From contig JACPWC010000005.1 of the NCBI GenBank assembly GCA_016197225.1, forward strand, positions 1 through 32,012: DNA of 32,012 nucleotides, in the 5' to 3' direction. The DNA comes from Chloroflexota bacterium. GTDB lineage: Bacteria > Chloroflexota > Anaerolineae > Anaerolineales > VGOW01. The translations under genes and the position numbers were made by a program. Numbering within the stretch: position 1 is the first letter of the stretch; each line of letters opens with the position of its first letter. Below, one piece after another: positions 14,560 to 32,012 of the stretch. Below the pieces are notes generated by a model. It saw only the letters and a program-made list of their open reading frames with translations, had not been told where the DNA came from and searched no databases.

Positions 14560-14609
14560 ATTCTCCAATCTCTAATTCTCCAAGAGCGAGAATTAGAGAT
14601 TGGAGAATT
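14559..14609 (+). repeat. Perfect 22-bp inverted repeat between the sugar transferase and wecB
   Basis: The arm at 14559-14580 is exactly complementary to 14588-14609, with a 7-base loop. It contains the (A)TTCTCCAATCTCTAATTCTC motif. The repeat begins at the last base of the upstream stop codon, and its right arm contains the TGGAGA that may serve as the wecB ribosome-binding site. It is AT-rich in a GC-rich region. Confidence 0.9.
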
Positions 14610-14616
14610 GGCGATT

Positions 14617-15714: not shown

Positions 15715-16703
15715 ACTTGCCGTCTCTGAAGGGGCAACGGATTCTGATCACCGGCGGCCTGGGGTTCATCGGCAGTAACTTGGCTCGCAAATGCCTTGAA
15801 CTGGGTGCGCAGGTGACTGTGTACGACTGCCTCGACCCGCGCTCCGGCGGCAACATGCACAACGTCCACGACATCGAAGGTTCGATTGAGATTATCCTCA
15901 ACGACATCCGCAACTTCGACGGCGTGAGCGCCTGCATTCGCAACAAGGATGTGCTGTTCAGTTGCGCCGCTTACACCTCGCACCCCAACTCGATGCTGGA
16001 ACCGTTGACCGATATTGACATCAACTGCAAAGGCATCATCAACCTGCTGGAAGCCGCCCGCCGTTTCAACCCTCACCTGAAAATCGTTCACGTCGCTTCG
16101 AGCACGCAAATCGGCAAGATGCACCTCAACCCGGTGGACGAACTGCATCCCGAATTTCCGATGGACATCTACTCGGCCAATAAAGTTGTGTCCGAGAAGT
16201 ATATGCTGATTTATCACAGCGCGTACGGGCTGGCGACTTCGGTGGTGCGACTCGCCAACACCTTCGGCCCCCGGTCCAATATCAAAAATAGCGACCTGGG
16301 CTTCATCAACTACTTCATTGGCCTGGCTCTGCAAGGCAAAGACCTGACGGTGTTCGGCGAGGGCAAACAGATGCGTAATATCAGCTACGTGGACGATTGC
16401 GCCTCGGCGCTGATCTTGGCCTCGCAAAGCGAGCGGAGCAACGGCGAAGTGTTCTTTGCCGTGAGCGACCGGCAGTACAGCATCGTCGAGATCGCCCAAA
16501 CGATCACGAATGTGATTGGCAAAAGCGGCGTGAGGTTTGTTGAGTGGCCCAAAGATCGTCAGATCATCGAGTTTGGCGATGCCATCATTAGCAACAAGAA
16601 GATAAAGGAGACGCTAAGCTGGTCGCCTGAGTGGGATTTGGAGCGGGGGTTGGGGCCGACGAAAGCGTATTTTGAGTCTTGCCTGGAGAAGTATTTGCGC
16701 TGA
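15711..16703 (+). CDS. NAD-dependent nucleotide-sugar epimerase/dehydratase (extended SDR)
   Basis: A 330-residue extended short-chain dehydrogenase. The NAD loop GGLGFIGSNLA lies at about residues 14-24. The catalytic Ser-rich strand is HVASSTQIG, and the Tyr/Lys pair is in DIYSANKVVSEKY. FGPRSNIKNSDLGFINYF, GKQMRNISYVDDCASAL and WSPEWDLERGL are typical of sugar epimerases. The start is TTG 15711, supported by GAGGAG at 15698-15703 and the TTGA overlap with wecB. It could be a UDP-sugar 4-epimerase or 4,6-dehydratase. The substrate cannot be decided here. Confidence 0.87.
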   Translation: MNLPSLKGQRILITGGLGFIGSNLARKCLELGAQVTVYDCLDPRSGGNMHNVHDIEGSIEIILNDIRNFDGVSACIRNKDVLFSCAAYTSHPNSMLEPLTDIDINCKGIINLLEAARRFNPHLKIVHVASSTQIGKMHLNPVDELHPEFPMDIYSANKVVSEKYMLIYHSAYGLATSVVRLANTFGPRSNIKNSDLGFINYFIGLALQGKDLTVFGEGKQMRNISYVDDCASALILASQSERSNGEVFFAVSDRQYSIVEIAQTITNVIGKSGVRFVEWPKDRQIIEFGDAIISNKKIKETLSWSPEWDLERGLGPTKAYFESCLEKYLR

Positions 16704-16716
16704 TGAGGGCGAGGCT

Positions 16717-18468
16717 ATGAAAGTGCTTGGGATTCATTACGGCCATAATGCGACAGTGTGTCTTATTGAAAATGGCACGATCACGTTTTGCCAAAGTGAA
16801 GAACGGCTGAACCGAATCAAAAACAGCACCGGCTTTCCTTTTCTAACCCTCGATTACATTTACAACCACATTGCGCCGCCCGAGGCAATTGATCTGGCTG
16901 TTGTCTTTCAAAAAACCATTTATGGCTATTTGCATTTGAAGAAGCATGGCTTCAAGTCTTTCCAGTATGGCTACTACTTGCGCGACGCCACGCTGAACGG
17001 CAAAAGCCTGAAGGAAAGACTCAAACAAACTGACCTGGGCTGGAGTCTGGGACTGATCAAGATTGCCGCCACTGAAAACGACAAGTCGCTCCAGAAAGAA
17101 GCGCACCGCTATTTCACCCGTAGCCTCAAATTGCCGCCGGAAAAAGTTCAATATTTGGATCACCATCTGGCTCATGCTTACAGCGCGCTTCTCAATACTC
17201 AAGATTGGGGCCGTGCGCTGATCTTTACTTTGGACGGAGTGGGCGACTGGAAATGCGCAACGGTGAACCTTTACGAGAATGGCAAGCTCACCGCTCTCAG
17301 CACAACCGATCATCGAAACTCTCTCGGCTACTATTACAGCGGAACGACAGCCATTTTGGGCATGAAAGCTGAGGAGCACGAGTTCAAGGTGATGGGACTG
17401 GCGCCGTATGCCAAGCCAACATATTACAAGCCGATCACTGATGAGCTTAGAAAATTGTTGACGATTGACGCCGACGGCAACTGGGTGAGCCGCCCCACGC
17501 TCAACCAGCTTATGCCAGAACTGGAACGGGTGTATCGTTTCCAGCGGTTTGATAACATCGCCGGCGCGATCCAGGAATTGACTGAGGAGCTGATCGCGCG
17601 CTGGGTGCGGTTCTGGGTTGAGAAAACCGGCTGTCGTAACGTGGCGGTGGCCGGAGGCGTGTTCATGAATGTCAAAGCCTGCCAGAAAATGGCCGAGATG
17701 GACACAGTGGATAAGTTGTTTGTCGTTCCCTCCGCCGCTGACGAGACAACGGCGGTGGGGTGCGCGGTGCGGGGCAGTATGGCTCTCGCGCCGCAAACGC
17801 CTGTTCAGCCGCTCCGTGATTTGTATCTCGGCATGGATTTTGACGATGCCAAAATCGAGAAAGCAATGGCAGAGATGAACGCCGGCGAACGCTATGATGT
17901 ATCTCGGCCAGAAAACATTAATTGTAAAATCGGCCATTTGCTGGCCGAAAACAAGATCGTCGCCCGGTGCTCTGGCCGGATGGAGTTTGGGGCGCGGGCG
18001 CTAGGCAACCGTTCCATTTTGGCTAACCCCAGCGACCGAAAGAACGTGCAGTTGATCAACGACGCCGTCAAGAGCCGCGACTTCTGGATGCCATTCACGC
18101 CAAGCATTCTCGAAGACGACATGCCGCGCTACGTCCAGAACCACGAGCGCATTTTTGCGCCCTATATGTGCATCACCTTCAACAGCACACCTGAAGCCCG
18201 GCGCGATCTCCCGGCGGCCCTGCACCCAAAGGACTTCACCGTCCGGCCTCAGTGCGTTCGCAAGGACTGGAATAGTGATTACTACGAGATTATCCGTGCC
18301 TTCAAAGATCAGACCGGCATCGGTGGAGTGCTGAACACCAGTTTCAATCTGCACGGTGAGCCGAATGTTTGCTCGCCGGTTGACGCGATTCGCACGGTGG
18401 ACAACTCTGGCCTTGCTTACCTGGCAATGGGAAGCTATTTGCTTGCCAAGCGTGATAACCAGCCATGA
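16717..18468 (+). CDS. Carbamoyltransferase of the NodU/CmcH family
   Basis: A 583-residue cytosolic enzyme that transfers a carbamoyl group from carbamoyl phosphate, via carbamoyl-adenylate, to a hydroxyl of a sugar or antibiotic. The N-terminal Kae1/YrdC-like part has LGIHYGHNATVCLIENG, EERLNRIKN, LDHHLAHAYSALL, FTLDGVGDW and VAVAGGVFMNVKACQ. The C-terminal CmcH-type domain has FGARALGNRSILANPSD, DFWMPFTPSIL and LNTSFNLHGEP. ATG 16717 gives the canonical start and follows a GAGGGCGAGG stretch. The carbamoyl acceptor is probably a sugar of this cluster. The stop overlaps the next gene by four bases. Confidence 0.95.
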   Translation: MKVLGIHYGHNATVCLIENGTITFCQSEERLNRIKNSTGFPFLTLDYIYNHIAPPEAIDLAVVFQKTIYGYLHLKKHGFKSFQYGYYLRDATLNGKSLKERLKQTDLGWSLGLIKIAATENDKSLQKEAHRYFTRSLKLPPEKVQYLDHHLAHAYSALLNTQDWGRALIFTLDGVGDWKCATVNLYENGKLTALSTTDHRNSLGYYYSGTTAILGMKAEEHEFKVMGLAPYAKPTYYKPITDELRKLLTIDADGNWVSRPTLNQLMPELERVYRFQRFDNIAGAIQELTEELIARWVRFWVEKTGCRNVAVAGGVFMNVKACQKMAEMDTVDKLFVVPSAADETTAVGCAVRGSMALAPQTPVQPLRDLYLGMDFDDAKIEKAMAEMNAGERYDVSRPENINCKIGHLLAENKIVARCSGRMEFGARALGNRSILANPSDRKNVQLINDAVKSRDFWMPFTPSILEDDMPRYVQNHERIFAPYMCITFNSTPEARRDLPAALHPKDFTVRPQCVRKDWNSDYYEIIRAFKDQTGIGGVLNTSFNLHGEPNVCSPVDAIRTVDNSGLAYLAMGSYLLAKRDNQP

Positions 18469-19409
18469 CAACGGTCAGCGTCATCATTCCTGCTTACAAT
18501 GCCTCGCGGTGGATGGCCGAGACATTGACGAGCGTGCTGGCCCAGGACTTCCCCGACTTTGAGGTGATTGTCGTTGACGACGGTTCCACCGACGATACCG
18601 CGACGGTAGTCGCTAAGTTTGAGCGTGTGCGTTACATTGCCAGACCCAATGGCGGTGAAGGCTCAGCGCGCAACGCCGGCATTTGCGCAGCAAACGGCGA
18701 GTATCTGGCGTTTGTGGATGCTGATGATCTCTGGGCGCAGGACAAACTTCGATTACAAATGGATCTATTGAAGCAGACTGGGTTGGCCTGGGTTTATTGT
18801 GATGCTGAAGTGTTTGACGGTGAAACGGGCAAGGGGCTCTACTTGTTGAGCCGGTTCAACCGCCCTCAAGTGGGTGACGTTTTACAATCCCTGTTGCTTC
18901 TCGACTTCATTCCCTGCCCCACGCCGCTCATCAGGCGCGATGTTTTTGAGACAGCCGGTTACTTTGACGAGACGGACATCTTGCGGATGCGAGCCGATTG
19001 GGACATGTGGTTGCGGATCGCGGCCCGCTACCCGGTCGGCTACATCAATTGCCCGTTGGCCCGCTACCGAGTCCACAATGCCAGCGGCACAAGCCGTGAG
19101 GCGGTGGAGGCCGCTTACCAGAGTGAGCTAACCGTGATCGAACGCGCCATCACCCGCGAGCCGGAGCAATTGGAACCGTTGAAAGCCCACGCGATTGCAA
19201 ACCTGGCCACGCGCATGGGGCGGCGAGCGGCGCGTAGCGGCGACCTGGCTGAAGCGCGGCGGTTGTTTGCCCAGGCAATTCGGCTAAGGCCGCTCTCGGC
19301 CCGTTCGTATGTTGACTGGCTCGGGGCGCTAACCAACCCCCCAGTTCTCGGCGTTGCGATCCGTTTGCGGCATTGGCTGATTGCCCATCGGCCAGTGATA
19401 TTAGGTTGA
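18465..19409 (+). CDS. Family 2 glycosyltransferase
   Basis: A 314-residue GT-A enzyme. It starts [20 protein letters not shown], followed by [24 protein letters not shown] and the metal-binding FVDADDLW (DxD). [11 protein letters not shown] represents the catalytic-base region. The last 90 residues are helical and TPR-like ([20 protein letters not shown]) and may support oligomerisation or partner binding. The start overlaps the carbamoyltransferase stop (ATGA). It is followed by gmd after a gap of 13 bases. It adds a sugar from a nucleotide donor that is not identifiable. Confidence 0.92.
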
Positions 19410-19422
19410 AAGAGGGTGTGGG

Positions 19423-20457
19423 ATGAAGCGAGCATTTATCACCGGCGTCACCGGGCAGGATGGCTCTTACCTGGCAGAGTGGCTGTTGAGCAAAGGCTAT
19501 CAGGTTCATGGTCTGGTGCGCCGGGCCAGCCTGTTCAACACCCAACGCATCAGCCCCATCTTTCAAGACCCGCATGAGACGACGGTCAACCTTTATTTGC
19601 ACTATGGCGACCTGCTGGACGCCAGCCTGATGCACCAATTGATCGCCGAGATCAAACCCGACGAAGTTTATAACCTGGCGGCGCAGTCGCATGTGCGCGT
19701 GTCATTCGATATGCCCCGCTACACCGCCGACACGATAGTGGCCGGCACGGTGAACCTTTTGGAAGCCATCCGCCGTGAAAAGCCGGACGCGCGTTTTTAT
19801 CAAGCCGCCTCCAGCGAAGTATTTGGCAAAGCGCAGGAAGTGCCTCAGCGCGAGACCACGCCGTTCTGGCCGCGCTCGCCTTACGGCGTGAGCAAGGCGG
19901 CCGCTTACTGGTTCACTGTGAATTATCGCGAATCATTCAAGTTGTTTGCGGCCAACGGCATTCTGTTTAACCACGAAGGGCCGCGACGCGGCGAGACGTT
20001 TGTGACCCGTAAAATCACGCGTGGCCTGGCCGAAATTTTGGCGGGCCGCCAGCAGAGAATTTTTCTGGGCAACCTGGAAGCGCGGCGCGATTGGGGCTAC
20101 GCCAAAGAATACGTGGAAGGCATCTGGCGAATTTTGCAAGCCGAAGCGCCTTCTGATTATGTGCTGGCGACAGGCGAGACTCACAGCGTCCGTGAATTCC
20201 TGCAAACGTGCTGTGACATTCTTGGCCTGGATGCGGCTCAGGTTGTTTCGATTGACCCGCGTTATCTGCGCCCGGCAGAAGTGGATTTGCTTGTGGGCGA
20301 CTCGACAAAAGCCAAACGGCAACTGGGGTGGGAGCCGAAGGCGCGTTTCAACGACCTGGTGCGCCTGATGCTGGCGGCTGATTTAGAAGCCTCGGGCCTT
20401 GACCCGGCGAAGTACGGGTTGGCGGCCTCAGAGGATAAGGCTGTGATCTCCGGCTGA
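19423..20457 (+). CDS. gmd: GDP-mannose 4,6-dehydratase
   Basis: A 344-residue NADP-dependent SDR that converts GDP-D-mannose to GDP-4-keto-6-deoxy-D-mannose. Diagnostic features are [62 protein letters not shown], the catalytic Tyr and Lys in [12 protein letters not shown], and [24 protein letters not shown] lies just before the ATG. Its product can go to GDP-L-fucose, GDP-rhamnose, GDP-perosamine or GDP-colitose, depending on the partners. The next two genes provide candidates for fucose- or colitose-type sugars. Confidence 0.95.
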
Positions 20458-20468
20458 AGGAGCAGGCG

Positions 20469-21440
20469 ATGACTTTTTGGAACGGGCGCAAAGTGCTGGT
20501 GACGGGGGGCAACGGCTTCATCGGCAGTCATTTAGTGGAGCTGTTGGTGGCCGAAGGAGCCGTCGTGACCACGACGGCCTCTTCTGAAGCAACACGTTTC
20601 CGTTTTCTAGAGGCGGTTAAAAGTGAGATTCGGATAGTGGCCGGTGATTTGGCCGACCCGGGTTGCGCGCAAGAGGCGGTTCGAGGCCAGGAAATCGTCA
20701 TACAGTTGGCGGCGCGGGTCGGCGGGATCGAATACAACCTCAAACATCCCGGCTCTATCTTTTACAACAACATGAGCGTCTTCATGTCGGTGCTGGAGGC
20801 GGCGCGCCGGGCCGGAGTTGAATTGTTTCTTGCCACCAGTTCGGCGTGTGTGTATCCGCGCTATTGCGCGATCCCTACTCCGGAAGAAGAGGGATTCAAA
20901 GACTGGCCGGAGCCGACTAATGAGGGCTATGGTTGGGCCAAACGGATGGAAGAGTTTCTGGGCGAAGCTTATGCCAAAGAATACGGGCTGAAGGTTCGAA
21001 TCGCCCGCCCCTACAACGCCTACGGCCCGCGCGACAACTTCGACCCGGCTTCCAGCCACGTCATCCCGGCTCTCATTCGCCGGATCGTGCAGGGCGAGAA
21101 TCCGATGGTGGTGTGGGGCGACGGCTCGGCCAGCCGCAGTTTTTTGTACGTGACCGACTTTGCTCGCGGGCTGATGGCAGTGGCGGAGAAATCGCCTCAG
21201 GTGGCGGCGATCAATATTGGCGCGAATGAAGAGACGACTATTCGCGAACTGGCCGAGACGCTCGTCCGTATTTCGGGCAAGCTGGTTGAGTTGCAGTTTG
21301 ACGCTTCGAAGCCGACGGGTCAACCCCGGCGTTGTTGTGACACCCGATTGGCCGAGAGCCTATTGGGGTTTCAGGCTCAGGTGCCGCTGGAAGATGGTTT
21401 GCGGCAGACGATGGAGTGGTATTCGCGGCATCTCGGGTGA
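20469..21440 (+). CDS. GDP-fucose-synthase/ColC-like epimerase-reductase
   Basis: A 323-residue extended SDR. The NAD(P) loop is TGGNGFIGS (12-20). The SSACVYP segment (124-130) supplies the catalytic Ser and Cys127, Tyr154 and Lys158 are in GYGWAKRM, and His197 is in DNFDPASSHVIPALIRR. In GDP-L-fucose synthase the equivalent Cys109 and His179 catalyse C-5 epimerisation, and both are kept here. The enzyme therefore probably epimerises and reduces GDP-4-keto-6-deoxymannose (to GDP-L-fucose) or its 3-deoxy form (to GDP-L-colitose, as ColC does). AAGGAG precedes the start. The context of gmd upstream and the ColD-like gene downstream supports this. The choice between the two products is open. 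Confidence 0.82.
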   Translation: MTFWNGRKVLVTGGNGFIGSHLVELLVAEGAVVTTTASSEATRFRFLEAVKSEIRIVAGDLADPGCAQEAVRGQEIVIQLAARVGGIEYNLKHPGSIFYNNMSVFMSVLEAARRAGVELFLATSSACVYPRYCAIPTPEEEGFKDWPEPTNEGYGWAKRMEEFLGEAYAKEYGLKVRIARPYNAYGPRDNFDPASSHVIPALIRRIVQGENPMVVWGDGSASRSFLYVTDFARGLMAVAEKSPQVAAINIGANEETTIRELAETLVRISGKLVELQFDASKPTGQPRRCCDTRLAESLLGFQAQVPLEDGLRQTMEWYSRHLG

Positions 21441-21450
21441 GAGGATGTTT

Positions 21451-22920
21451 ATGACGAAAAAGAGCGCACAGCAACTTGAAGAGTTGATGTTCAATCGCGA
21501 GCCTGCCGCCGAGGCTGGGCCGGGGTTGCCAGTATCAGAACGACTTGAGAAACAGTGGAACAATGAGAAGTTGTTCTGGCGCGAATTGGACGGACGCGAG
21601 CCGACGCCGGAGCAGGTTGAACAACGCTTGCGGGCGGGCCGGGGGCGGGCGCAAGAGTTGCGGAAGGCGATTCACAACCTGATCCGCGAATATGCCGAAG
21701 AGCTTTATCAACCGGCGAATATCCGCCAGTTGGAACTGGTGCGTTCGTCTTATGATGAAGAAGAGATGATTGCGGCGATTGATGTCGTGTTGGATGACCG
21801 AATGACGATGGGGCCGCGGGTGGCCGCCTTTGAGGACGAATGGTCGGCGTTCTTGCCCGCGCCGTTTTCGGTGATGGTCAATTCCGGCTCATCGGCGAAT
21901 TTGATGATGCTGTCGGCGCTGGCGTTTCCAGGCGTCGAGAGGCATCTGCAACCGGGCGATGAGGTTATACTCCCAGCAGTCGCCTGGTCAACGTCGCTCT
22001 TTCCGATTGCCCAGGTCGGTTGCCTGCCGGTGCTGGTGGACGTGAACCTTGACACGCTCAATATTGATCCGGCGCGGGTGGAGGCGGCCATCACGCCGCG
22101 CACGCGGGCGATCATGGCTGTGCATCTGCTGGGCAACCCATGCGACGTGCAGGCCTTGCTGGATATTGCCAGGCGGCATCACCTGTGGTTGATCGAAGAT
22201 TGTTGCGAGTCGCATGGCGCCAGCGTAGATGGCCGACAAGTGGGGACGTTTGGCGATCTGTCAGCATTCAGCTTTTTCTTTTCGCACCACATGACGAGCG
22301 TGGAAGGCGGCATGGTATGTGGGCGCGACAAAGCCCTCTGGCGCGACCTGTTGATTTCGATGCGGGCGCATGGCTGGATTCGCGGGCGCGATGATCACGA
22401 CGAGTGGGTGCGTCAATGCCCGGATATTGACCCGCGCTGGCTATTTGTCACCACCGGCTACAATTTGCGCCCCACCGAGATCAACGCCGCTTTCGGGCAG
22501 GTGCAACTCTCCAAGATGCCGGGATTTATTCAGAGGCGGGTGGCCACGCGCCAACGGGTGATGGAGTTGTTGCGGCCCTACGAGGAGTTCTTCTGCTTTC
22601 AACAAGAACTGCCAGGCCATCTGCACACCGCTTTTGGCTTTTCGTTTCTGGTTCGCCCGAACGCGCCCTTCTCCCGCGCCGAGTTCCAGGCTTACCTTGA
22701 GTCCTGCCGCATCCAAACCCGGCCCATCGTCGGTTCGAACCTGGCTCGCCAGCCGGTGATGAAATACGTGCCGCACCGCATCGTCGGGGACTTGCCCAAC
22801 GCCGACACAATCCACTTTCAGGGCGTGATGATAGCCAATCATCATAATGTGACTGTTTCTCAGCAAGACTATCTGGTGGAATCTGTTGACCACTTCGTGC
22901 GTCGGCGCGCTTTGGTTTGA
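21451..22920 (+). CDS. ColD-like PLP-dependent sugar 3-dehydratase (DegT/DnrJ/EryC1 family, Lys replaced by His)
   Basis: A 489-residue member of the DegT/DnrJ/EryC1 fold: MTMGPRVAAFEDEWS, VNSGSSANLMMLSAL, VAWSTSLFPIAQ, DCCESHGA and TGYNLRPTEINAAFGQ. At the site where aminotransferases have the PLP-anchoring lysine, the sequence is SFFFSHHMTSVEGGM (His279-His280). This is the hallmark of ColD and RfbH-type 3-dehydratases, which remove the C-3 hydroxyl. With gmd two genes upstream, the natural substrate would be GDP-4-keto-6-deoxymannose. The N-terminus has about 110 extra residues (RKAIHNLIREYAEELYQP is RfbH-like). ATG 21451 is preferred over 21445 because GAGAGG then has a workable spacing. 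It could instead act on a CDP-sugar. Confidence 0.85.
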   Translation: MTKKSAQQLEELMFNREPAAEAGPGLPVSERLEKQWNNEKLFWRELDGREPTPEQVEQRLRAGRGRAQELRKAIHNLIREYAEELYQPANIRQLELVRSSYDEEEMIAAIDVVLDDRMTMGPRVAAFEDEWSAFLPAPFSVMVNSGSSANLMMLSALAFPGVERHLQPGDEVILPAVAWSTSLFPIAQVGCLPVLVDVNLDTLNIDPARVEAAITPRTRAIMAVHLLGNPCDVQALLDIARRHHLWLIEDCCESHGASVDGRQVGTFGDLSAFSFFFSHHMTSVEGGMVCGRDKALWRDLLISMRAHGWIRGRDDHDEWVRQCPDIDPRWLFVTTGYNLRPTEINAAFGQVQLSKMPGFIQRRVATRQRVMELLRPYEEFFCFQQELPGHLHTAFGFSFLVRPNAPFSRAEFQAYLESCRIQTRPIVGSNLARQPVMKYVPHRIVGDLPNADTIHFQGVMIANHHNVTVSQQDYLVESVDHFVRRRALV

Positions 22921-22938
22921 GCCGGCGCATTTAGAACT

Positions 22939-23955
22939 ATGAAAGTTCTCCTGGCCGCGGCGAGGCACGACTACGGCGACAAGTCGCGGGGCCTCTCTAA
23001 CGAATACTACAATTTATTCCTGCCGCTTGAGCGAGTTGTGGACTCGGTCGTCCTTTTCGACTTCATGGAGCAGTTTCAGTCACAAGGCCGCGAGCGCATG
23101 AACCACGATCTGCTGGAGATGGTCAAGCGCGAGCGGCCTGATGTTGCCATTATCGTTCTACACACTGATCAAGTGATGCCGGAAGTGATAGATGAGGTCA
23201 ACCGGCACACGATCACGGTCGGGTATTTCTTCGACGACATGTGGCGGGTGAACTTCTCGCGCTTCTGGGCAAAGCATTTCACCTGGGTCACGACTTCGGA
23301 TGTCAACGGCGTCCGGAAGTTTCGTCAGGCTGGCTTCAGCAACACGATTTTTTTGCCGTTTGCCTGCAATCACCGCATCTTCGTCAAGAAAGACCTGCCC
23401 AAACTTTACGATGTTACGTTTGTCGGCCAGTATCATCCGCACCGCGCCTGGTTGTTGAACCAACTTAAGCGGGCCGGGATCAAGGCGCAGATTTGGGGTT
23501 ACAAGTGGGGGAATGGGCGGTTGGATCAGGACGCGATGGTGGACGTCTTTAATCAGAGCCGGATCAACCTGAACTTCTCGAACTGCGTTTCTTGGGACGC
23601 GAGGTATCTGTTGTCCTCGCCCAACGCCGTCAAAGACACGCTTCGGGCGCTGGTCAAGCGAGACGTCAAAACCCACGAGCAAATTAAAGGGCGGCATTTT
23701 GAGATCAATGCCTGTGGCGGCTTTCAGCTCTCTTACTATGTTGAAGGGTTAGAGCGATGTTACGCCATCGGCGAAGAAATGGCCCTCTATGCCGACCCTG
23801 ATGATTTGGTTGAAAAGATACGTTATTACTTGAAAGATGAGGACGAGCGAGAAACTGTTGCCCGGCGCGGCTACGAGCGCACGTTGACCGAGCATACAAT
23901 GGAGAAACGCTTTCAGCAACTCCTGACGGAAATCAGGCTACACCTGATTCAGTGA
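22939..23955 (+). CDS. CgeB-like glycosyltransferase
   Basis: A 338-residue GT-B-type protein of the CgeB/glycosyl-transferase-1-2 group. Recognisable parts are VGYFFDDMWRVNFSRFWAK, FLPFACNHRIF, YDVTFVGQYHPHR, INLNFSN and the C-terminal EINACGGFQLSYYVEGLERC with ADPDDLVEKIRYYL. The last is the usual nucleotide-sugar-binding end of the family. ATG 22939 lies 18 bases after the previous stop. Donor and acceptor are unknown. It probably adds one sugar to the repeat unit in the cytosol. Confidence 0.82.
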   Translation: MKVLLAAARHDYGDKSRGLSNEYYNLFLPLERVVDSVVLFDFMEQFQSQGRERMNHDLLEMVKRERPDVAIIVLHTDQVMPEVIDEVNRHTITVGYFFDDMWRVNFSRFWAKHFTWVTTSDVNGVRKFRQAGFSNTIFLPFACNHRIFVKKDLPKLYDVTFVGQYHPHRAWLLNQLKRAGIKAQIWGYKWGNGRLDQDAMVDVFNQSRINLNFSNCVSWDARYLLSSPNAVKDTLRALVKRDVKTHEQIKGRHFEINACGGFQLSYYVEGLERCYAIGEEMALYADPDDLVEKIRYYLKDEDERETVARRGYERTLTEHTMEKRFQQLLTEIRLHLIQ

Positions 23956-23958
23956 AGA

Positions 23959-25008
23959 GTGAAAAAGATTCTCATTCACACTTGGTCTCACGGCCATGGC
24001 CGACAGTTTGATCCCAACGTTCGCGATGCTAATAACGATCCTTACATTTACCTGCGCGAACGATTGGACGAATTAGGCTACAGCCTCGAAACGTCCGACG
24101 AGCATCCGCTGGACGATTGCGTCCGGATTCTGTTCTTCGACGCAATCTCCGTCAAGCCTTATGCTGGCTGGCGCGGAAAAATCAGGCGGGTCAACGAATA
24201 TCTGAAAGGGAAGCCACCGTTTCGTGACTTGTATGGCGAGTGCCGGCGCGCTGGCATGGCGGAACGCGCGGCCTTGTTCTTGTGGGAAGCGCCTGCCGTT
24301 AGCCCGGCCAACTGGGACTCTGATCTGCATGATTTGTTCTCTATCATCCTGACATGGAATGATGCGGTCGTTGACGGACGCAAGTTTCACAAGTTTTATT
24401 GGCCCCAGCCTCGCCGCTTTCCTCAAATTCCCAAAACTCCTTTCTCCCAAAAGAAATTGCTAGTGAATATCTCGATGAATAAGTTTTCCCGCCATCCACG
24501 CGAGTTATACTCGGCGCGGCGGGCAACGATCCGGCACTTTGAACAGAGACGGTCAGACGATTTTGACTTGTACGGTGTGGATTGGGATCGCCCGGCAGGG
24601 CCGTTTCAACGGCTCTTCCCTTTTATCTATCGCCCCTATCCATCTTATCGCGGGGTAATTCAGCACAAGTGGGACATTCTGCCAAAGTATCGTTTCAGCT
24701 TGTGCTACGAAAATGTCTACGGCGAGCCGGGGTGGATCACCGAAAAGATTTTCGATAGCATGCGGGCCGGCTGTGTGCCGATCTACTGGGGCGCGCCCAA
24801 CATCGCCGAGTACGTGGATGCCGACGCCTTTGTTGATCGCCGCCGTTTCCCGTCTGACCGTGAACTGGAAGAGTTCTTGATGGGTGTAACCGAGCGGGAA
24901 TATGAGCGTTATCAAAAAGCGATGGAAGCTTATCTGTCCAGCGAACACTTTGCCCGTTTCCTGCCGCCCGCCTTTGCCGACACGGTCATTCGTGTTCTGA
25001 AGTTGTAG
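23959..25008 (+). CDS. Fucosyltransferase-like glycosyltransferase (GT10)
   Basis: A 349-residue protein with the GT10 donor-binding region near residues 243-280: RFSLCYENVYGEPGWITEK followed by FDSMRAGCVPIYWGAPNI. This matches the conserved (F)ENS…YVTEKL…G.VPV..G block of alpha-1,3/4-fucosyltransferases, which use GDP-L-fucose. An N-terminal domain (HTWSHGHGR…) and the FLWEAP segment fit the rest of the fold. The start is GTG 23959, four bases after the previous stop. Its presence beside gmd and an Fcl/ColC-like gene suggests that it transfers the GDP-6-deoxy sugar made by those enzymes. Confidence 0.82.
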   Translation: MKKILIHTWSHGHGRQFDPNVRDANNDPYIYLRERLDELGYSLETSDEHPLDDCVRILFFDAISVKPYAGWRGKIRRVNEYLKGKPPFRDLYGECRRAGMAERAALFLWEAPAVSPANWDSDLHDLFSIILTWNDAVVDGRKFHKFYWPQPRRFPQIPKTPFSQKKLLVNISMNKFSRHPRELYSARRATIRHFEQRRSDDFDLYGVDWDRPAGPFQRLFPFIYRPYPSYRGVIQHKWDILPKYRFSLCYENVYGEPGWITEKIFDSMRAGCVPIYWGAPNIAEYVDADAFVDRRRFPSDRELEEFLMGVTEREYERYQKAMEAYLSSEHFARFLPPAFADTVIRVLKL

Positions 25009-25016
25009 ACGATCCA

Positions 25017-26549
25017 GTGAACCGCCTGCAACGCTCCTCCTTCAACATAATTTTCAGCGCGGCTGGCTGGGCCGTGCCTGCTCTGCTCAACTTCCTTTCC
25101 ACGCCGATCCTGCTGAAATTGTTGGGAGAAGCGGCTTACGGTTTGCAGACCCTGGTCGCCGTTGTCATCGGTTATCTCACGGTGATGGATATGGGTCTGG
25201 ACATTCCGGTCACTAAATTTCTGGCCGAGGATCATGCTCGGGGCGACTCCGAGTCAGAGAATCGCCTTCTCAACACTACTCTGCAACTCTATACCGGCAT
25301 TGGCATCGTTGGCATGGTCATCATCATGCTGGCCGCAGATGTTCTTGCCCGCCGTGTGTTTGAGGTGCCTGATGAGTTAATCCGTCAGGCCGTCGTTGTC
25401 TTCAGGCTGGCCGGCGTTGGCTTCCTGGCGAGTGTGATGAGCATGTGGGGCAAAGCAATTGCCAACGGTTTGCAACGCTATGATGTTGCCAGCAAGATTT
25501 CGATCGCGGCCAATCTGGCGGGTGTCACTATCGGCCTGGCGGCGGTATATGCTGGTTATGGCGTTACCGGCTACGTGTTTATCAGGGTGCTGGTGTCATT
25601 GCTGACCGGAGTGGCTTACTTAATTTCTGCTCACCAGTTAATACCGGGCTTCCGGTTACGATTGGCAATAGATATGCCAATACTACAGCGAGTGAAAAGC
25701 TACGCCAGTTTTGGGTTGATCCTGCGCCTGACAGGGTTGATTGTCGGCGGGCTGGATCGAACGTTGATCGGCGCCTGGCTTGGCGTGGCCGCCGTGGCGC
25801 TTTATGCTGTGCCCGCTCTTGTTTCCGCCGCATTCAGCCAGCTTATCGGAAACATGCTTCACTTCATCTTTCCGATGGCAAGCGAGTTATACAGCACCAA
25901 TCAATTCGAAGCACTGCAAAATATCTTTATTCGCTCGATGCGGTTTGTGGCTGGACTGGCTACAGCTATGATCGTTCCGCTTTTAGTCTTGGGCGACCTC
26001 TTTTTGAATTTATGGATTGGCCCGAATGTGACTGTCCAATCCGCCGCTGTTCTGCGATTATTACTCTTGACAGCTTATTTCCAGGCTGTCGCCGCCGTTC
26101 TGACAAATAACTTCGTTGTCGGGACAGGGCGGATTTCTGTTTTTTCGGTGTATGCCACCATCAACGGGCTAGTAGTCGGCGCGGGGTGCCTGTTATTCAT
26201 CCGCCCATTTGGAATACAGGGAGCCGGGCTGGCACAACTTATCAGCGAAGCTGTAGATATTATCTTTATGATCTTTGTTGTGCAGCGCTACCTTCAAATC
26301 TCGCCGCTTGCCCTGTTCCGAACCGCATATTTACGACCGCTTCTGCTGGGTCTGGCAATTGGCGCATTGGCTTTTCTGGCCCGCCCAATCGCCACTTCGT
26401 GGATCGGGTTGAGCATGGTAGTAGGCTGTTTGGAGATCATCTACCTGGTTGTAGGTTATCAGATCGGCGTATTCAGCGAAACTGAAGCGCGGGCCGCAGT
26501 CGGATTGTGGCAAGCCATGTCAAAGTTAATGAGGCGGGCTGGAGCATAG
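25017..26549 (+). CDS. Polysaccharide flippase (Wzx/oligosaccharide flippase family)
   Basis: A 510-residue integral membrane protein with about 12-14 hydrophobic helices. The N-terminus (SFNIIFSAAGWAVPALLNFL, TPILLKLLGEAAYGL) is typical of the MviN/Wzx-like polysaccharide transporter group. LTGLIVGGLDRTLIGAWLG is the conserved middle helix region. It should flip the lipid-linked repeat unit across the cytoplasmic membrane. The start is GTG 25017, nine bases after the GT10 gene, and the stop codon directly abuts the ATG of the next gene (26550). Confidence 0.9.
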   Translation: MNRLQRSSFNIIFSAAGWAVPALLNFLSTPILLKLLGEAAYGLQTLVAVVIGYLTVMDMGLDIPVTKFLAEDHARGDSESENRLLNTTLQLYTGIGIVGMVIIMLAADVLARRVFEVPDELIRQAVVVFRLAGVGFLASVMSMWGKAIANGLQRYDVASKISIAANLAGVTIGLAAVYAGYGVTGYVFIRVLVSLLTGVAYLISAHQLIPGFRLRLAIDMPILQRVKSYASFGLILRLTGLIVGGLDRTLIGAWLGVAAVALYAVPALVSAAFSQLIGNMLHFIFPMASELYSTNQFEALQNIFIRSMRFVAGLATAMIVPLLVLGDLFLNLWIGPNVTVQSAAVLRLLLLTAYFQAVAAVLTNNFVVGTGRISVFSVYATINGLVVGAGCLLFIRPFGIQGAGLAQLISEAVDIIFMIFVVQRYLQISPLALFRTAYLRPLLLGLAIGALAFLARPIATSWIGLSMVVGCLEIIYLVVGYQIGVFSETEARAAVGLWQAMSKLMRRAGA

Positions 26550-27623
26550 ATGAAAATCTTGTTTCTGCGCCCGCGTGCCGAACTGGGAGGGGCCAGCCGC
26601 CACATGCTGGCCCTTGCCACTGCCCTCGCCGAGCGCGGCCACGCCGTTACGCTGGGCACGGGCGGCGGCGAATGGCGCGATCAGTTTGCCCACCCCGTTT
26701 CCTTGCCACTCTACCCTTCAACAGCTCGTAACTTAATAGCTTCGATTGGACAAACGACGCAGGTGACGCATCGCGAAAAGATTGATGTGATTCACAGCCA
26801 CCACCGCTTTACAACCATCGTCGGTCGGGCAGTAGCCCGCCTCACCGGCCTGCCCCTGGTCTGCACCGTTCACGAATTCAAGACCGATGCTCGTTGGCTG
26901 TCGCGTTTGTGGATTGCGCCCTGGGTGTGCGCGATCAGTGACGCGCTTCGTGATCACCTCATCCAATTCTACGGCGTTAATCCGGCGTGTGTTACCGTCA
27001 CTCGGATAGGGGCGCTTCCAACTCTGCCCGACCCTTCTGCCGCTGACCGCTTACGTCACGCTTTGAGCGATGCGCCGTCAGGGCCTATCCTTGGTTACGT
27101 TGGCCGGCTTTCGCCAGAGAAAGGCGTAGCGACTTTGATTTACGCCTTGCCTCAGGTGCTTCAAGCACATCCAACTGCCCGCGTCGTCATCATCGGCGAC
27201 GGCATCGAACGTCGCGTATTGGAAACATTGGCTACCTCCCTGGGCCTTGGCGATCAAGTGTGCTTTATGGGCGAACAAGTAGATGCGCCCCAATTGATGA
27301 CCGCGATGGATGTGGTGGTTGTGCCGTCATTATCGGAAGGGTTTGGGTTGACGGCGGTTGAGGCGATGGCGGCGGCGAAACCGGTGGTGGCAAGCGCCGT
27401 TGGCGGACTGGTGGAAGTGGTTGAAGATGGGGTCACCGGGTTTTTAGTTCCACCAACTGATCCGGTTGCTTTGTCCGGGCGAATCATCGAGGTGTTAGCT
27501 AACCCGGCGCGGGCTGTTGCGATGGGAGCGGCCGGGCAGAAAAAAGTGGCCGAGTGGACTCCGGCGCAGGCGGCGGAAATAACAGAAGCGCTTTATCGGC
27601 GCGCTCTTGCCAATCATGCCTGA
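26550..27623 (+). CDS. Family 4 glycosyltransferase
   Basis: A 357-residue GT-B enzyme. The N-terminal acceptor domain starts MKILFLRPRAELGGASRHML. The C-terminal donor domain has ILGYVGRLSPEKGVATLI, VIIGDGIERRVLE, and the E-x7-E motif in EGFGLTAVEAMAAAKPVV followed by GGLVEVVEDGVTGFLVPP. All are standard for GT4. The ATG lies directly after the flippase stop. The 3' end overlaps the GT26 gene by 8 bases. The sugar donor is not evident. Confidence 0.94.
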   Translation: MKILFLRPRAELGGASRHMLALATALAERGHAVTLGTGGGEWRDQFAHPVSLPLYPSTARNLIASIGQTTQVTHREKIDVIHSHHRFTTIVGRAVARLTGLPLVCTVHEFKTDARWLSRLWIAPWVCAISDALRDHLIQFYGVNPACVTVTRIGALPTLPDPSAADRLRHALSDAPSGPILGYVGRLSPEKGVATLIYALPQVLQAHPTARVVIIGDGIERRVLETLATSLGLGDQVCFMGEQVDAPQLMTAMDVVVVPSLSEGFGLTAVEAMAAAKPVVASAVGGLVEVVEDGVTGFLVPPTDPVALSGRIIEVLANPARAVAMGAAGQKKVAEWTPAQAAEITEALYRRALANHA

Positions 27624-28374
27624 GTACCCTAATCAAAGAATCAATGTGTTAGGCGTGTGGATCGACTCGCTCGGTCTGGCCGAACTGCTGGAGCGTGTTT
27701 CTGCACTGGCGCGCGATGGCGAGCAACATACCGTGATGTATGCTAACGTTCACGTTCTCAACACTGTCGTAGAGGATGCGCTGCTGCGCCGCACTTTGAA
27801 TAACGCAGACCTCGTTTATTGCGATGGCGATGGAGTGCGTCTGGGCGCGCGTTTGCTCGGCCAGCATTTGCCGCAACGAATGACGGGTGCGGACTGGATT
27901 TATCCGGCGTGCGAGCACTGGCAGCAAGAAGGGCTGTCTGTTTTCTTTTTTGGCGGCGCGCCCGGTGTGGCTGACCGGGCTGTGGCAAAACTCAAGCGGC
28001 AGTATCCGGCACTCCGCATTGCCGGGACTCACGCCGGCTTCTTTACAGACTCTTCAGCCGTCGTCGCCGCCGTCAATGTCGCCCGCCCCGACATCTTGCT
28101 GGCCGGGATGGGCACACCGATTCAAGAGCGGTGGGTGGCTGAACATGCCACGCATCTTGAAGTGTCAGTAATTTGGACGGTGGGGGCGGTGATGGATTTT
28201 GTGTCTGGCGAAGCGCCGCGCGCGCCGCGCTGGATGCTCGGCTACGGGTTGGAATGGTTGGGCCGCCTCCTGGCCGAGCCACGGCGGTTGTGGCGGCGTT
28301 ATCTGATTGGCAACCCGCTGTTTTTGTGGCGAGTGCTTCAACAGCGATTGGGGTTGTTGCGCTTTGAAGATTGA
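27616..28374 (+). CDS. WecG/TagA/CpsF-family glycosyltransferase (GT26)
   Basis: A 252-residue enzyme of the family that transfers N-acetylmannosamine-type sugars to lipid-linked acceptors. It has INVLGVWIDSLG, TVMYANVHVLNT, NADLVYCDGDGVRLGARLLG, RMTGADWIYPAC, VFFFGGAPGV, DILLAGMGTPIQERWV and VGAVMDFVSGEAPRAP. ATG 27616 is preferred over TTG 27607, although both overlap the upstream gene. The wecB gene earlier in the cluster can supply UDP-ManNAc for it. A hydrophobic C-terminus may attach it to the membrane. Confidence 0.93.
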   Translation: MPEYPNQRINVLGVWIDSLGLAELLERVSALARDGEQHTVMYANVHVLNTVVEDALLRRTLNNADLVYCDGDGVRLGARLLGQHLPQRMTGADWIYPACEHWQQEGLSVFFFGGAPGVADRAVAKLKRQYPALRIAGTHAGFFTDSSAVVAAVNVARPDILLAGMGTPIQERWVAEHATHLEVSVIWTVGAVMDFVSGEAPRAPRWMLGYGLEWLGRLLAEPRRLWRRYLIGNPLFLWRVLQQRLGLLRFED

Positions 28375-28415
28375 TGGCAAGGTGGGCGAGCGTGTAATTT
28401 GTGATGAGGCAATCA

Positions 28416-30830
28416 ATGCAAACGGATATGAACCAGACCCGTGAGGCCAACCGCGCTTCTTCAGCCTCCGTCGGCTACTTGATCAAAGAAACCGTCCTGT
28501 TTTTGGCCTTTTGCTATCTGATGTTCTTTGTGAACACGTGGCGGGTTTACGCCAGTTATGATCACATCCGATTCGGCGTTGCGGCGCTTACGGTGATGTC
28601 ACTGGGGTGGCTGGCTCTCGGCATGTGGCGGGGCCATGGCGCGCTTCTGCCTATGCCGCTGACATGGCCTCAGCTTCTCTTTCTTGGAGTCTATTTGTTC
28701 ACTGCTCTCACTTCGACAGATCCTCGCCGCTCGCTGGATGAAGTCTGGGTAGCGGGCGCAAATATTTTTATCTTTGCTCTAACAGTGGAACTGGTAAATC
28801 GGGGTTGGCCGCGCGAGTTATTTGTCAAGACGCTATTGCTAGCGAGTACGTTGATCGTCGGCCTGGCTTGGTGGATGGCTATGGGCTGGTACCGAGCCTG
28901 GCTGACAACCTCGCCCGGATCGTGGGTGCCGGAAATTGCATATCGCTTGCCGTTGGCGAATGGCCTTGCCACTTTCTTCAATTTGCTGTTCATGGTTGCG
29001 CTAGCTCGCTTGGCCCCCTCGCACGCGCGTCTGCCTCGCGCCCTGCTGGTGGGCTGGGGTGTTAGTGTGCTTGGCCTCATCTTTCTGACGTTCTCACGCG
29101 GTGGCTGGCTGGGGTTTTTAGCCGGGGTTGTGACGCTGGCGGCGCTAAAAGTGCGCGATGCCGGCGGCGCTGAGTATTTGCGGCGCTTGAGAAATACTCT
29201 GCGGAAGAAGTGGCCTCTGGCATTAATGGCCCTGGCTCTCGGAGGAAGCGGGGCGGTGGTAATCATCTGGGTAGCCATCCGGTTGTTGGATAGCCCGGTG
29301 AAACTCCCGGCGCTGATCGCGCGTTCGCAGTTCTGGAATCCGGCCTGGCAATCGTTTCTGCAATCGCCATTTGTTGGAAGAGGGCCGTTAACTTTTGGAA
29401 GCGTTTACCTTTTGGGAAACTCGGTGCCGCCGTCCGCGTTCTACCCTCACGCTCACAGCATCTTCTTCAACCTGTTGGCCGAAACAGGCCTGGCCGGGTT
29501 AGCCGCCTTTGGAGTGTTGGCCGTGAGCGCGTTCCGCGCCTTGTGGAAGCAGGCGAATGTTTTGCGCGGCGATGACCGGGCGGTGGCGCTCGGCGCACTG
29601 GCCGGCGCGGCGGCCTTTGCCGCTCACAGTCTGGTGGATACGGTTCAGGTGGAGCCGGTGAACGCGGTAACGTTTGCCATCATTCTTGGTGTCGCCCTTG
29701 CGCCTGCCCAGGCTGTTGAGCGCCCCAAACGCCTTTCGACGGTTTTCGCTCGCCTGCCAATTTTTCTTGGCCTGGCGCTTTCGGTCTCCGGCTTTTACAA
29801 CGTGTGGCGGCTGACTCCTTTGCACGACGCTGTCGAGGCTTCGCAACAAGGGCAATGGACAGAGACCGCGACTTTGTTGGAGGAAGCTGCCCGGCGAGAT
29901 TCCAGATCGGCGATTATTTATCAACAGTTGGGTCTGGCGAAAAGTATTCTGGCCGCGCAGGGGCAACCCGAGGCTCTGGAACAGGCAACCGCCGCTTTTA
30001 CAGAGACGGTTCAACTTGATCCGGACTGGTGGTTGAATCACGCAAATCTCGCTGCGTTGTTCGAATCGCAAAACAATTACGTTTCCGCTCTGGCCGAATT
30101 GCAAATTGCAGCCAGGCTTGCTCCCAAATCGGCGTTGGCCCATTTGAATTTGGGCGTGGCCGCCGAGGGCGCAAGTGAGTGGTCAGCCGCCGGGCGCGCC
30201 TATCACGACACGCTCGACTTGCGCCCGGATTGGGCCGAGGCGTATTTCTGGCGGGCTACGCCCTTTCGCCGGCAAGTGCTGGCCGAGTGGCGGCAAATGG
30301 CCACAACTACGCCTGCGCCAACTCTGGCCGAGCTTGAAGCGGCGGCTCAGAGCGCAGATCGCGCGAACACTTACATTCGACTCGCTAGCGTCTATGTGGC
30401 GTTGGGGCGGTTGGATGAGGCTGAGACTCTTTTGCAGAAGGCAACGCTTGCTTTTTTTGGCGCAGGCGAGGAGCGCTTGGAACTGCTTTGGGTGGAAGCC
30501 GAGTTGGCGGCGGCGAGAGGAGATTTGGGAGAGGCGGCGGCAAGAGGCGAGGAAGCAGTGAAAGGCTATCAACTGCAATCAGCGTTTGGGCCGGGCGCGT
30601 TTGGCGAAGCGATCTATGGACTGATTGTTTTCCGGCAGGAGACGATGGCGGTTGATCTCGCGCCGCAGTTGACGCCTGCGCCGTTCACCGACCTGTGGGC
30701 AAGACGCATGTTGCAAGCGGGTGACTGGCACAGGGTGGTGGGCGATGAGGTGCAAGCCAATTCGATCTACAGAGATTTGCTGGCGCTGGTTCCCGATCAG
30801 GCCGAAGCGAAGAGCCGACTGCAACGGTAG
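28416..30830 (+). CDS. O-antigen ligase/polymerase (Wzy/WaaL-like) with C-terminal TPR domain
   Basis: About 804 residues. The first 450 contain 10-12 hydrophobic helices, with the family hallmark LTFSRGGWLGFLAG and the extracellular catalytic-loop motif FYPHAHSIFFNLLAETGL, then AAFAAHSLVDT. These match Wzy_C/O-antigen ligase enzymes, which polymerise or ligate repeat units outside the membrane. The remaining 350 residues form TPR-like helical pairs (AVEASQQGQWTETATLLEEA, ALEQATAAFTETVQLDPDWW, LGVAAEGASEWSAAGRAYHD), likely for protein contacts. ATG 28416 has GAGG six bases upstream. In-frame GTG 28401 and ATG 28404 lack one. It probably polymerises the unit flipped by the upstream Wzx-like protein. 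Confidence 0.9.
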   Translation: MQTDMNQTREANRASSASVGYLIKETVLFLAFCYLMFFVNTWRVYASYDHIRFGVAALTVMSLGWLALGMWRGHGALLPMPLTWPQLLFLGVYLFTALTSTDPRRSLDEVWVAGANIFIFALTVELVNRGWPRELFVKTLLLASTLIVGLAWWMAMGWYRAWLTTSPGSWVPEIAYRLPLANGLATFFNLLFMVALARLAPSHARLPRALLVGWGVSVLGLIFLTFSRGGWLGFLAGVVTLAALKVRDAGGAEYLRRLRNTLRKKWPLALMALALGGSGAVVIIWVAIRLLDSPVKLPALIARSQFWNPAWQSFLQSPFVGRGPLTFGSVYLLGNSVPPSAFYPHAHSIFFNLLAETGLAGLAAFGVLAVSAFRALWKQANVLRGDDRAVALGALAGAAAFAAHSLVDTVQVEPVNAVTFAIILGVALAPAQAVERPKRLSTVFARLPIFLGLALSVSGFYNVWRLTPLHDAVEASQQGQWTETATLLEEAARRDSRSAIIYQQLGLAKSILAAQGQPEALEQATAAFTETVQLDPDWWLNHANLAALFESQNNYVSALAELQIAARLAPKSALAHLNLGVAAEGASEWSAAGRAYHDTLDLRPDWAEAYFWRATPFRRQVLAEWRQMATTTPAPTLAELEAAAQSADRANTYIRLASVYVALGRLDEAETLLQKATLAFFGAGEERLELLWVEAELAAARGDLGEAAARGEEAVKGYQLQSAFGPGAFGEAIYGLIVFRQETMAVDLAPQLTPAPFTDLWARRMLQAGDWHRVVGDEVQANSIYRDLLALVPDQAEAKSRLQR

Positions 30831-30844
30831 CCGATAAGCATTCG

Positions 30845-32012
30845 ATGAATAATGTTGAAAAGTTGATTGCGTGGTTGGATGACGATTGGCGCTCTGTCGC
30901 GCTGTTAGCGTTGATCGTTCTCGCTTTTTTCTTGCCATCGTTGCTCATCCCCGATGTTTTGATTTGGCCCAACAGTGGCTTTGGCGCGGACATTATTCAC
31001 TTCCATTGGCCTGATCTGGTGAGCTTTGCTTCTCACTTGCGTCAAGGTCGTCTTGCGCTATGGGACTCGTCAATGGCATTGGGTATGCCCATCGCGGGTG
31101 ATCCCGGCGCGCTCTTCTTGTATCCACTTACACTGTTCTTTTTATTTTTACCACCCGCGTTGAGCTTCAACCTATTAGATGCCATTCATGTCTTCATCGG
31201 CGGCGTGTTCACGTTTTCGTTTTTGCGGAGCCACAACACCTCGCGCCCGTCAGCGTTGATCGGTGGATTGATCTTCGCCTTTGCGCCCAAAGTGATCATT
31301 CATCTCGCCGCTGGGCATTTGGGAGTGGTGTGGTGTTTGATGTGGTTGCCTGCCGTGCTGTTTGGCCTCAAACAGGCGATGGACGGATCGCTTTTCGCTT
31401 CACCGTGTGCAGGATTGGCGATGGCATTATCTATGCCGAACATGATTCAAATTTCATATTACATCATGCTTGTTGCGTCGGCGTTTTGGTGTTGGCACTT
31501 CGCGTCGGCAATATGGAAAAAAGAATGGACGCAAATACGTTGGTTGATGATTGTCTTTGCTGTTTATCTCGTCTCATTTATTTTGTTCGCATCGTTTGTC
31601 TTGTTGCCATTAAGCGAACTACTTCCTTATAACAGCCGCGCTAACTTCACGATTGGTGATGCAAACTTGTTCGCTTTGCCGCCCTATCTTCTCATCACGT
31701 TGTTTGCGCCTACCACGTTTCAATTTCCAGAGTGGACGATCTTTATGGGCGTGTTATCGCCATTGTTGATCGTAATCGCTTTCGTTCAATCACGCCGCGC
31801 CGCCAATTGGTTTTTTGTAGCGATGATTTTTTTGACATTGACCTTTTCACTTGGCACTGCTACGCCATTGTTTGAGTTTGCTTTTCGATTTGTTCCAGGC
31901 TTCGGCCTGTTGCGCGTCCCAGCCCGCGCTTGGTTCTTCGGCGCGTTTGCAGTTGCCGTGCTAGCGGGATTTGGCGCGGAGAAATTTTCAGATGCTCGAT
32001 TGATTGGTTATC
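30845..32012 (+). CDS. YfhO-like multi-spanning membrane protein (partial, continues past window end)
   Basis: The frame is open from ATG 30845 to the end of the window (389 codons), with no stop. It has many hydrophobic helices and the YfhO-type signature FGADIIHFHWPDLVSFASH, then GRLALWDSSMALGMPIAGDP, and further on FGLLRVPARAWFFGAF. YfhO-type proteins are GT-C-like membrane proteins linked to glycosylation of lipoteichoic acid or other surface polymers. It begins 14 bases after the polymerase gene. Base composition is clearly more AT-rich (TTT, TTG, ATT and AAA codons are frequent) than in upstream genes, which may mark a different origin for this part. Confidence 0.82.
   Translation, partial: MNNVEKLIAWLDDDWRSVALLALIVLAFFLPSLLIPDVLIWPNSGFGADIIHFHWPDLVSFASHLRQGRLALWDSSMALGMPIAGDPGALFLYPLTLFFLFLPPALSFNLLDAIHVFIGGVFTFSFLRSHNTSRPSALIGGLIFAFAPKVIIHLAAGHLGVVWCLMWLPAVLFGLKQAMDGSLFASPCAGLAMALSMPNMIQISYYIMLVASAFWCWHFASAIWKKEWTQIRWLMIVFAVYLVSFILFASFVLLPLSELLPYNSRANFTIGDANLFALPPYLLITLFAPTTFQFPEWTIFMGVLSPLLIVIAFVQSRRAANWFFVAMIFLTLTFSLGTATPLFEFAFRFVPGFGLLRVPARAWFFGAFAVAVLAGFGAEKFSDARLIGY

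Follow-up and report, generated by a model that had tools for sequence, protein, structure and literature searches.

Which sugar does the glycosyltransferase family 10 (GT10) enzyme of this Chloroflexota bacterium transfer? The enzyme is a bacterial relative of those that add fucose to blood-group sugars. A first-pass annotation had proposed that this one transfers the GDP-deoxysugar made by its neighbours, possibly a colitose. We analysed the whole 32,012-nucleotide stretch of DNA that carries the gene (hereafter the window), which is contig C5 of a genome of 4.8 Mb in 126 contigs, listed as 97.95% complete. The results support the proposal: the enzyme would be an inverting GT-B transferase that most likely takes GDP-beta-L-colitose (3-deoxy-L-fucose) as its natural donor, a reading to which we give a probability of about 0.72. 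It is built on a colitose-like pathway, on a genome with one GT10, one ColD and no second strong Fcl, and on an association found across many phyla. Donor, acceptor, linkage and pathway direction are all inferred.

Sequence and structure comparisons confirmed that the open reading frame (ORF) at 23959-25008 is an intact, real gene of the GT10 family with a GT-B fold. The two blocks quoted in the annotation, YENVYGEPGWITEK and GCVPIYWGAP, were both present as exact matches. The ORF matched PF00852 (Glyco_transf_10) with 43.0 bits, above the gathering cut-off of 23.9, over profile positions 54-137 of 182 only; the E value of 5.3e-11 leaves low odds of a chance match. None of the NCBIfam models matched. 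A sequence search of the PDB returned five distinct sequences: Helicobacter pylori FucT (HpFucT; two entry sets, best 7.8e-11), the Arabidopsis and mango enzymes and human FUT9. A profile of 46 relatives reached HpFucT at 7.8e-28. The AlphaFold model (46 sequences) had a mean pLDDT of 95.9, and Foldseek placed HpFucT (2nzw) at the top with 7.0e-11, FUT9 scoring 1.8e-10. HpFucT was also first in the VIA-align list (2nzx_C, Z 18.9), in which many other GT-B enzymes scored 16-18, so that the fold alone cannot fix the donor. Every solved GT10 relative found in this way is a fucosyltransferase, in line with the view that the window enzyme is an ordinary GT10 fucosyltransferase, the ColC/Fcl-like enzyme of the locus also making GDP-L-fucose and the GT10 preferring it. 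We consider this improbable, for reasons that concern the neighbouring genes, the rest of the genome and the relatives of the enzyme.

The donor motif of the family is retained. The window GT10 carries the donor motif EN...[YW]xTEK as E251-N252...W259-I-T-E262-K263, and E251, N252, T261, E262 and K263 were invariant in 46/46 rows of the alignment. E110, kept in 44/46 rows, was aligned by profile, in a weak 7.7-bit stretch, with the glutamate of the FUT9 motif WMNLESPTHT, which we take to be the catalytic base of FUT9. By analogy with FUT9 and HpFucT, drawn partly from general knowledge of these enzymes, E110 is likely the base of the window GT10 and the 251-263 block is proposed as its donor grip. 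HpFucT (alpha-1,3/4, GT10; 2NZW/2NZX/2NZY) shares the EN...[YW]xTEK motif and superposes with an rmsd of 3.2 over 269 residues, but the identity over the fold is 14% and the context of the window gene is colitose-type. Human FUT9, another GT10 enzyme, similarly shares motif and fold, but is 18% identical over the fold and transfers fucose.

The gene lies in a tight run on the + strand comprising gmd, a colC/fcl-like gene, a colD-type gene, a CgeB-like gene, the GT10, a Wzx-like flippase, a GT4, a WecG/TagA-like gene and an O-antigen ligase/polymerase-like gene (Table 1). It is the fifth gene from gmd (19423), starts 3 bases past the preceding gene and ends 8 bases before the flippase gene, in agreement with its earlier placement five genes into the same operon. 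A promoter and terminator scan gave no excess over shuffled sequence. Just upstream, an SDR and a NodU-like carbamoyltransferase are encoded (15711-18468), and the locus may make a carbamoylated sugar as well.

Table 1 Features of the gene run around the GT10 gene, in window coordinates
Feature	Position	Strand	Basis or remark
gmd, GDP-mannose 4,6-dehydratase (first step to GDP-4-keto-6-deoxymannose)	19423..20457	+	TIGR01472, 490 bits (cut-off 415)
colC/fcl-like epimerase-reductase SDR (GDP-L-colitose synthase-like)	20469..21440	+	NF047922, 212 bits
colD-type PLP/PMP 3-dehydratase, DegT fold	21445..22920	+	His in FFFSHHMTSVEGG; best PDB match ColD 2gms
CgeB-like glycosyltransferase, other candidate user of the same donor	22939..23955	+	PF13524
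GT10 glycosyltransferase, proposed colitosyltransferase	23959..25008	+	GTG start, 349 aa
Wzx-like flippase	25017..26549	+	PF13440, PF01943
GT4	26550..27623	+	
WecG/TagA-like gene	27607..28374	+	assigned by eye
O-antigen ligase/polymerase-like membrane protein with TPR repeats	28401..30833	+	PF04932, TPR

The dehydratase matched ColD (2gms) with an E value of 1.5e-71. A histidine, aligned with ColD H188, occupies the position of the aminotransferase catalytic lysine (FFFSHHMTSVEGG), and no CxC-type cysteine motif was found in the 110 residues after it, whereas this motif was present in all RfbH-type relatives examined. The RfbH/E1 model NF011936 gave 332.9 bits, below its cut-off of 423. In a quick tree of 67 dehydrases the protein grouped with the E. 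coli O55 and O111 ColD enzymes (30 rows, SH-aLRT 98), a placement to be taken with caution given its long branch (1.13) and odd composition. Histidine in place of lysine (a trait of 3-dehydratases) and a missing [2Fe-2S] cluster are given as ColD traits in a review (PMC8987622). As judged from its His motif, the missing cluster motif and its place in the ColD clade, the protein is a ColD-type 3-dehydratase and not of the RfbH/E1 type; the sole hint of a GDP-sugar substrate is the adjoining gmd. The tree also contained a third group of His-type 3-dehydrases, with the motif V(A/G)HH(M/L)STIEGG and no cysteine motif (L052, L060, L065, L076, L092 and L125), which is sister to ColD (support 100, 6 rows) and adjoins fcl and GT10; it is called the sister type below.

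The colC-like protein contains SSACVYP, YGWAK and SSHVIPAL, which hold the Fcl/ColC catalytic residues, and its best PDB matches were GDP-fucose synthases. With the Fcl model NF047922 (cut-off 500) it scored 212 bits, compared with 304 and 311 for the E. coli O55 and O111 ColC and 532 for E. coli Fcl. Like E. coli ColC, it therefore falls under the Fcl cut-off, yet it scores lower still. Retention of the GDP-fucose synthase motifs (SSACVYP, YxxxK, SSHV) agrees with fucose as the donor, and the gene could also serve fucose, but a ColD encoded in this run would draw off the intermediate that both routes share. The His-type, cluster-free ColD suggests that the local pathway is colitose-like. The E. 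coli O55/O111 colitose pathway (Gmd, ColD, ColC) uses the same three enzyme types and the ColD tree joins the two systems, although the window ColD has an N-terminal extension and is 35% identical to that of O55.

The low Fcl score of the ColC-like protein (212 bits against 304-311 for known ColC) and the divergence of the ColD-like protein (35% identity to E. coli O55 ColD) could also mean that the locus makes a different GDP-3,6-dideoxyhexose or a derivative of one, for example without C-5 epimerisation, and that the GT10 transfers this sugar; the upstream carbamoyltransferase and SDR (15711-18468) could act on such a sugar. Both proteins keep their catalytic motifs, and no further modifying gene is found within gmd-colC-colD-cgeB-GT10; we hold this to be the least probable of the readings considered here. 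If the sugar is colitose, Gmd would make GDP-4-keto-6-deoxymannose, from which the ColD-like enzyme would remove the C-3 oxygen, and the ColC-like enzyme would epimerise C-5 and reduce C-4 to give GDP-L-colitose. The GT10 would then put colitose, in alpha linkage, onto a lipid-linked repeat unit, and the Wzx-like flippase would export the colitose-bearing unit.

The supply of donors was then considered across the whole genome. It contains one GT10 (23959-25008), one ColD-like match at 1140 bits, with four others at 23-141 bits, and one Fcl-like match at 209 bits, the next scoring 79 bits. A second gmd lies on contig C16 beside an Rmd-like SDR gene assigned by eye (L015:7606-9533), and the pair is probably a GDP-D-rhamnose route. 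The sole GDP-L-sugar route found in the genome would end in colitose, or in fucose should the ColC-like enzyme be lax. With no second GT10 in the genome, and no further Fcl-like gene scoring above 79 bits, the donor that fits best is GDP-L-colitose; as the genome is not closed, a gene may have been missed. The missing separate strong Fcl gene argues against an ordinary fucosyltransferase.

Homologues of the enzyme were sparse nearby. Any match was restricted to 5 genomes, its own included, among 201 near relatives, and PF00852 was detected in 10/400 genomes of the phylum, so the GT10 gene is rare in this phylum. In genome G385 (L048/L055) the GT10 is 52% identical to that of the window, with ColD, FCL and CgeB nearby. 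Three GT10s were used to seed a scan of the collection, which yielded 392 confirmed stretches; the best 80 were taken, and many of their loci held colD, fcl, gmd and a CgeB-like gene. The order gmd-fcl-colD-cgeB-GT10 was frequent (the window, L086, L101, L139 and L157), and colD-(cgeB)-GT10 recurs across unrelated phyla. Cultured organisms with the cassette include Marinospirillum minutulum (L086) and Paenibacillus alkaliterrae (L077).

To reduce bias, every PF00852 match was taken from 400 genomes of the phylum and from 369, 331 and 327 genomes of the classes of G566, G573 and G574, respectively, with up to 10 kb fetched on each side of a match. Together with the scan this gave 165 GT10 ORFs, which were reduced to 159 rows by dropping repeats or near repeats (L055, L086, L101, L122, L050) and one ORF that was too short (L163); L070 and L189 are the same gene counted twice. 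By profile score, 86 of these rows were classed as window-type (330 bits or more) and 73 as other GT10s, and 79 of the 86 came from the scan seeded with the window GT10 (best 80 of 392), which makes them a non-random sample. ColD or the sister type was found within 10 kb of 28/86 window-type rows but of only 1/73 other rows (Fisher p 5e-8), and the contrast held for the family-sampled rows alone, the seeded scan being left out (ColD or the sister type near 3/4 against 1/70, p 2.4e-4); the p values are guides only, since the rows are related and one gene was counted twice. Among rows flanked by 5 kb or more on each side, the counts were 22/57 for window-type and 0/47 for other rows. The scarcity of ColD next to other GT10s (1/73) is a further point against an ordinary fucosyltransferase.

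More ColD genes were found farther from the GT10. A search with a ColD alignment of 49 genomes lacking ColD within 10 kb of the GT10 matched 27, which by motif reading comprised eight of the ColD type, one of the sister type and a remainder that was RfbH-type or unclear. Two further loci, L091 and L100, have gmd-fcl-colD about 10 kb away. In total, 14 more of the 86 rows had ColD or the sister type at a greater distance or at another place in the genome, L190 and L191 among them, giving 42/86 anywhere found. We also considered a CDP-dideoxyhexose donor for loci that have only an RfbH-type dehydrase within 10 kb. This was dropped as a leading idea because two of the roughly 11 such loci, L190 and L191, when extended, hold gmd-fcl-colD at about 10 kb, and because GMD was found in 16/18 genomes queried. 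The RfbH-type dehydrases of L091, L093, L094, L102 and L104, read by eye, adjoin apparent CDP-glucose pathway genes and an apparent gene for a transketolase-like or TPP-dependent enzyme, a set that would suit a branched dideoxysugar, yersiniose for instance.

The CgeB-like protein encoded at 22939-23955 is the other candidate colitosyltransferase, in which case the GT10 would add another GDP-sugar. In L054, L079, L139 and L157, among others, colD, a CgeB-like gene and GT10 follow one another directly. In L056, L077, L136 and L137, by contrast, GT10 follows straight after colD with no CgeB-like gene between them. CgeB-like genes also occur beside RfbH-type dehydrases (L091, L104), fitting another sugar, and the genome yielded no further GDP-L-sugar pathway. 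We regard this assignment as very unlikely, and colitose transfer by the GT10 itself as the better reading. In L136 (L136:409-4598) the GT10 that directly follows gmd-fcl-colD belongs to a different subfamily (169 bits), which suggests that the use of colitose by GT10 enzymes arose more than once.

The donor loop between EN and the aromatic residue was one residue longer than in HpFucT in 82/86 window-type rows and in 0/27 other readable rows, the pattern being unreadable in 46 other GT10 rows and one window-type row. As a signature of colitose the longer loop was rejected: the ColD-linked L056 and L136 have the short loop, and loop length is thus a marker of the subfamily and not of the donor. 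One report describes an H. pylori alpha-1,3-fucosyltransferase that tolerates a fluorine at C-3 of the donor (PMC12409901); on that evidence, a GT10 should still be able to transfer a sugar that lacks the C-3 hydroxyl.

Not all relatives fit a colitose donor. The window GT10 belongs to a clade of eight (support 100), five of which have ColD or the sister type within 10 kb. A sixth, L058, has it elsewhere in the genome, while genome searches gave no ColD match for L059 and, for L053, nothing but an RfbH-type dehydrase. Twelve window-type rows from Chlamydiota, Dependentiae and Verrucomicrobiota, which form a separate clade, had no ColD within 10 kb and no match in the genomes searched. Members of this clade include L088, L096, L108, L115, L116, L119, L123, L127, L129, L080 and L083. 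Another window-type GT10, that of Noviherbaspirillum (L120), is accompanied by FCL and GMD, whereas ColD was found neither within 10 kb nor by a search of the genome, as would be expected of a fucosyltransferase. On the subfamily tree the ColD label was scattered, with no significant clustering (135/500 shuffles as low). The Chlamydiota/Dependentiae clade, together with L120 and L053, led us to reject colitose specificity as a blanket claim for the whole subfamily.

The O55 locus of E. coli (L192) contains a gene annotated as an alpha-1,2-fucosyltransferase that we take to be wbgN; we assume that its product belongs to GT11, a family with the motif GGLGNQ(M/L)FQY. WbgN uses GDP-L-colitose, the donor proposed for the window GT10, and like the GT10 gene its gene is clustered with colC and colD (L192). 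Unlike the window enzyme, however, WbgN is of another family, the O55 cluster having the GT11 motif and no GT10 match. A colD-like match was present in 86 of 5426 genomes, from which five E. coli colitose-type loci were drawn; their ORFs gave no match to the GT10 profile, unlike the window, and a GT11-motif gene was present in both O55-type loci among them. Conversely, the GT11 motif was absent from all ORFs of window positions 14001-32012. Two reports indicate that WbgN (the characterised alpha-1,2-colitosyltransferase of E. coli O55) accepts both GDP-colitose and GDP-fucose (PMC12723683, PMC11987014), and one of them that human FUT2, like WbgN, transfers both sugars (PMC11987014). Donor specificity is thus unreadable from such sequences, and a single transferase taking both sugars is compatible with fucose transfer by the window enzyme. 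Our literature search for colitose with GT10 or glycosyltransferase family 10, whose coverage mostly left out subscription papers, returned no paper.

Among the ColD-bearing loci, L090, L106, L124, L126, L071 and L137 have GT11-motif genes close to the GT10, and 10/28 ColD-linked rows have a GT11-motif gene in their locus. The two enzymes of such a locus might place two colitoses, one per family. We tentatively suggest, as an idea somewhat less probable than its converse, that a whole GT10 branch, found in archaea and across bacterial phyla, evolved to transfer colitose and has a gmd-colC-colD-(cgeB)-GT10 cassette of its own, and that some loci pair GT10 and GT11 to build Lewis-type motifs with two colitoses in place of fucose. 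If the colitose reading is right, GT10, a fucosyltransferase family by its solved members, would include a widespread set using colitose donors. Colitose-bearing glycans would become predictable from genomes outside enterobacteria and vibrios, and enzymes would be at hand for colitose glycans with linkages other than the alpha-1,2 linkage of WbgN. These enzymes would also allow a direct test of how the GT10 pocket handles a missing C-3 hydroxyl. Elsewhere in the window, positions 4330-5139 encode a protein with an aminoglycoside adenylyltransferase C-terminal domain (AadA_C, 56 bits).
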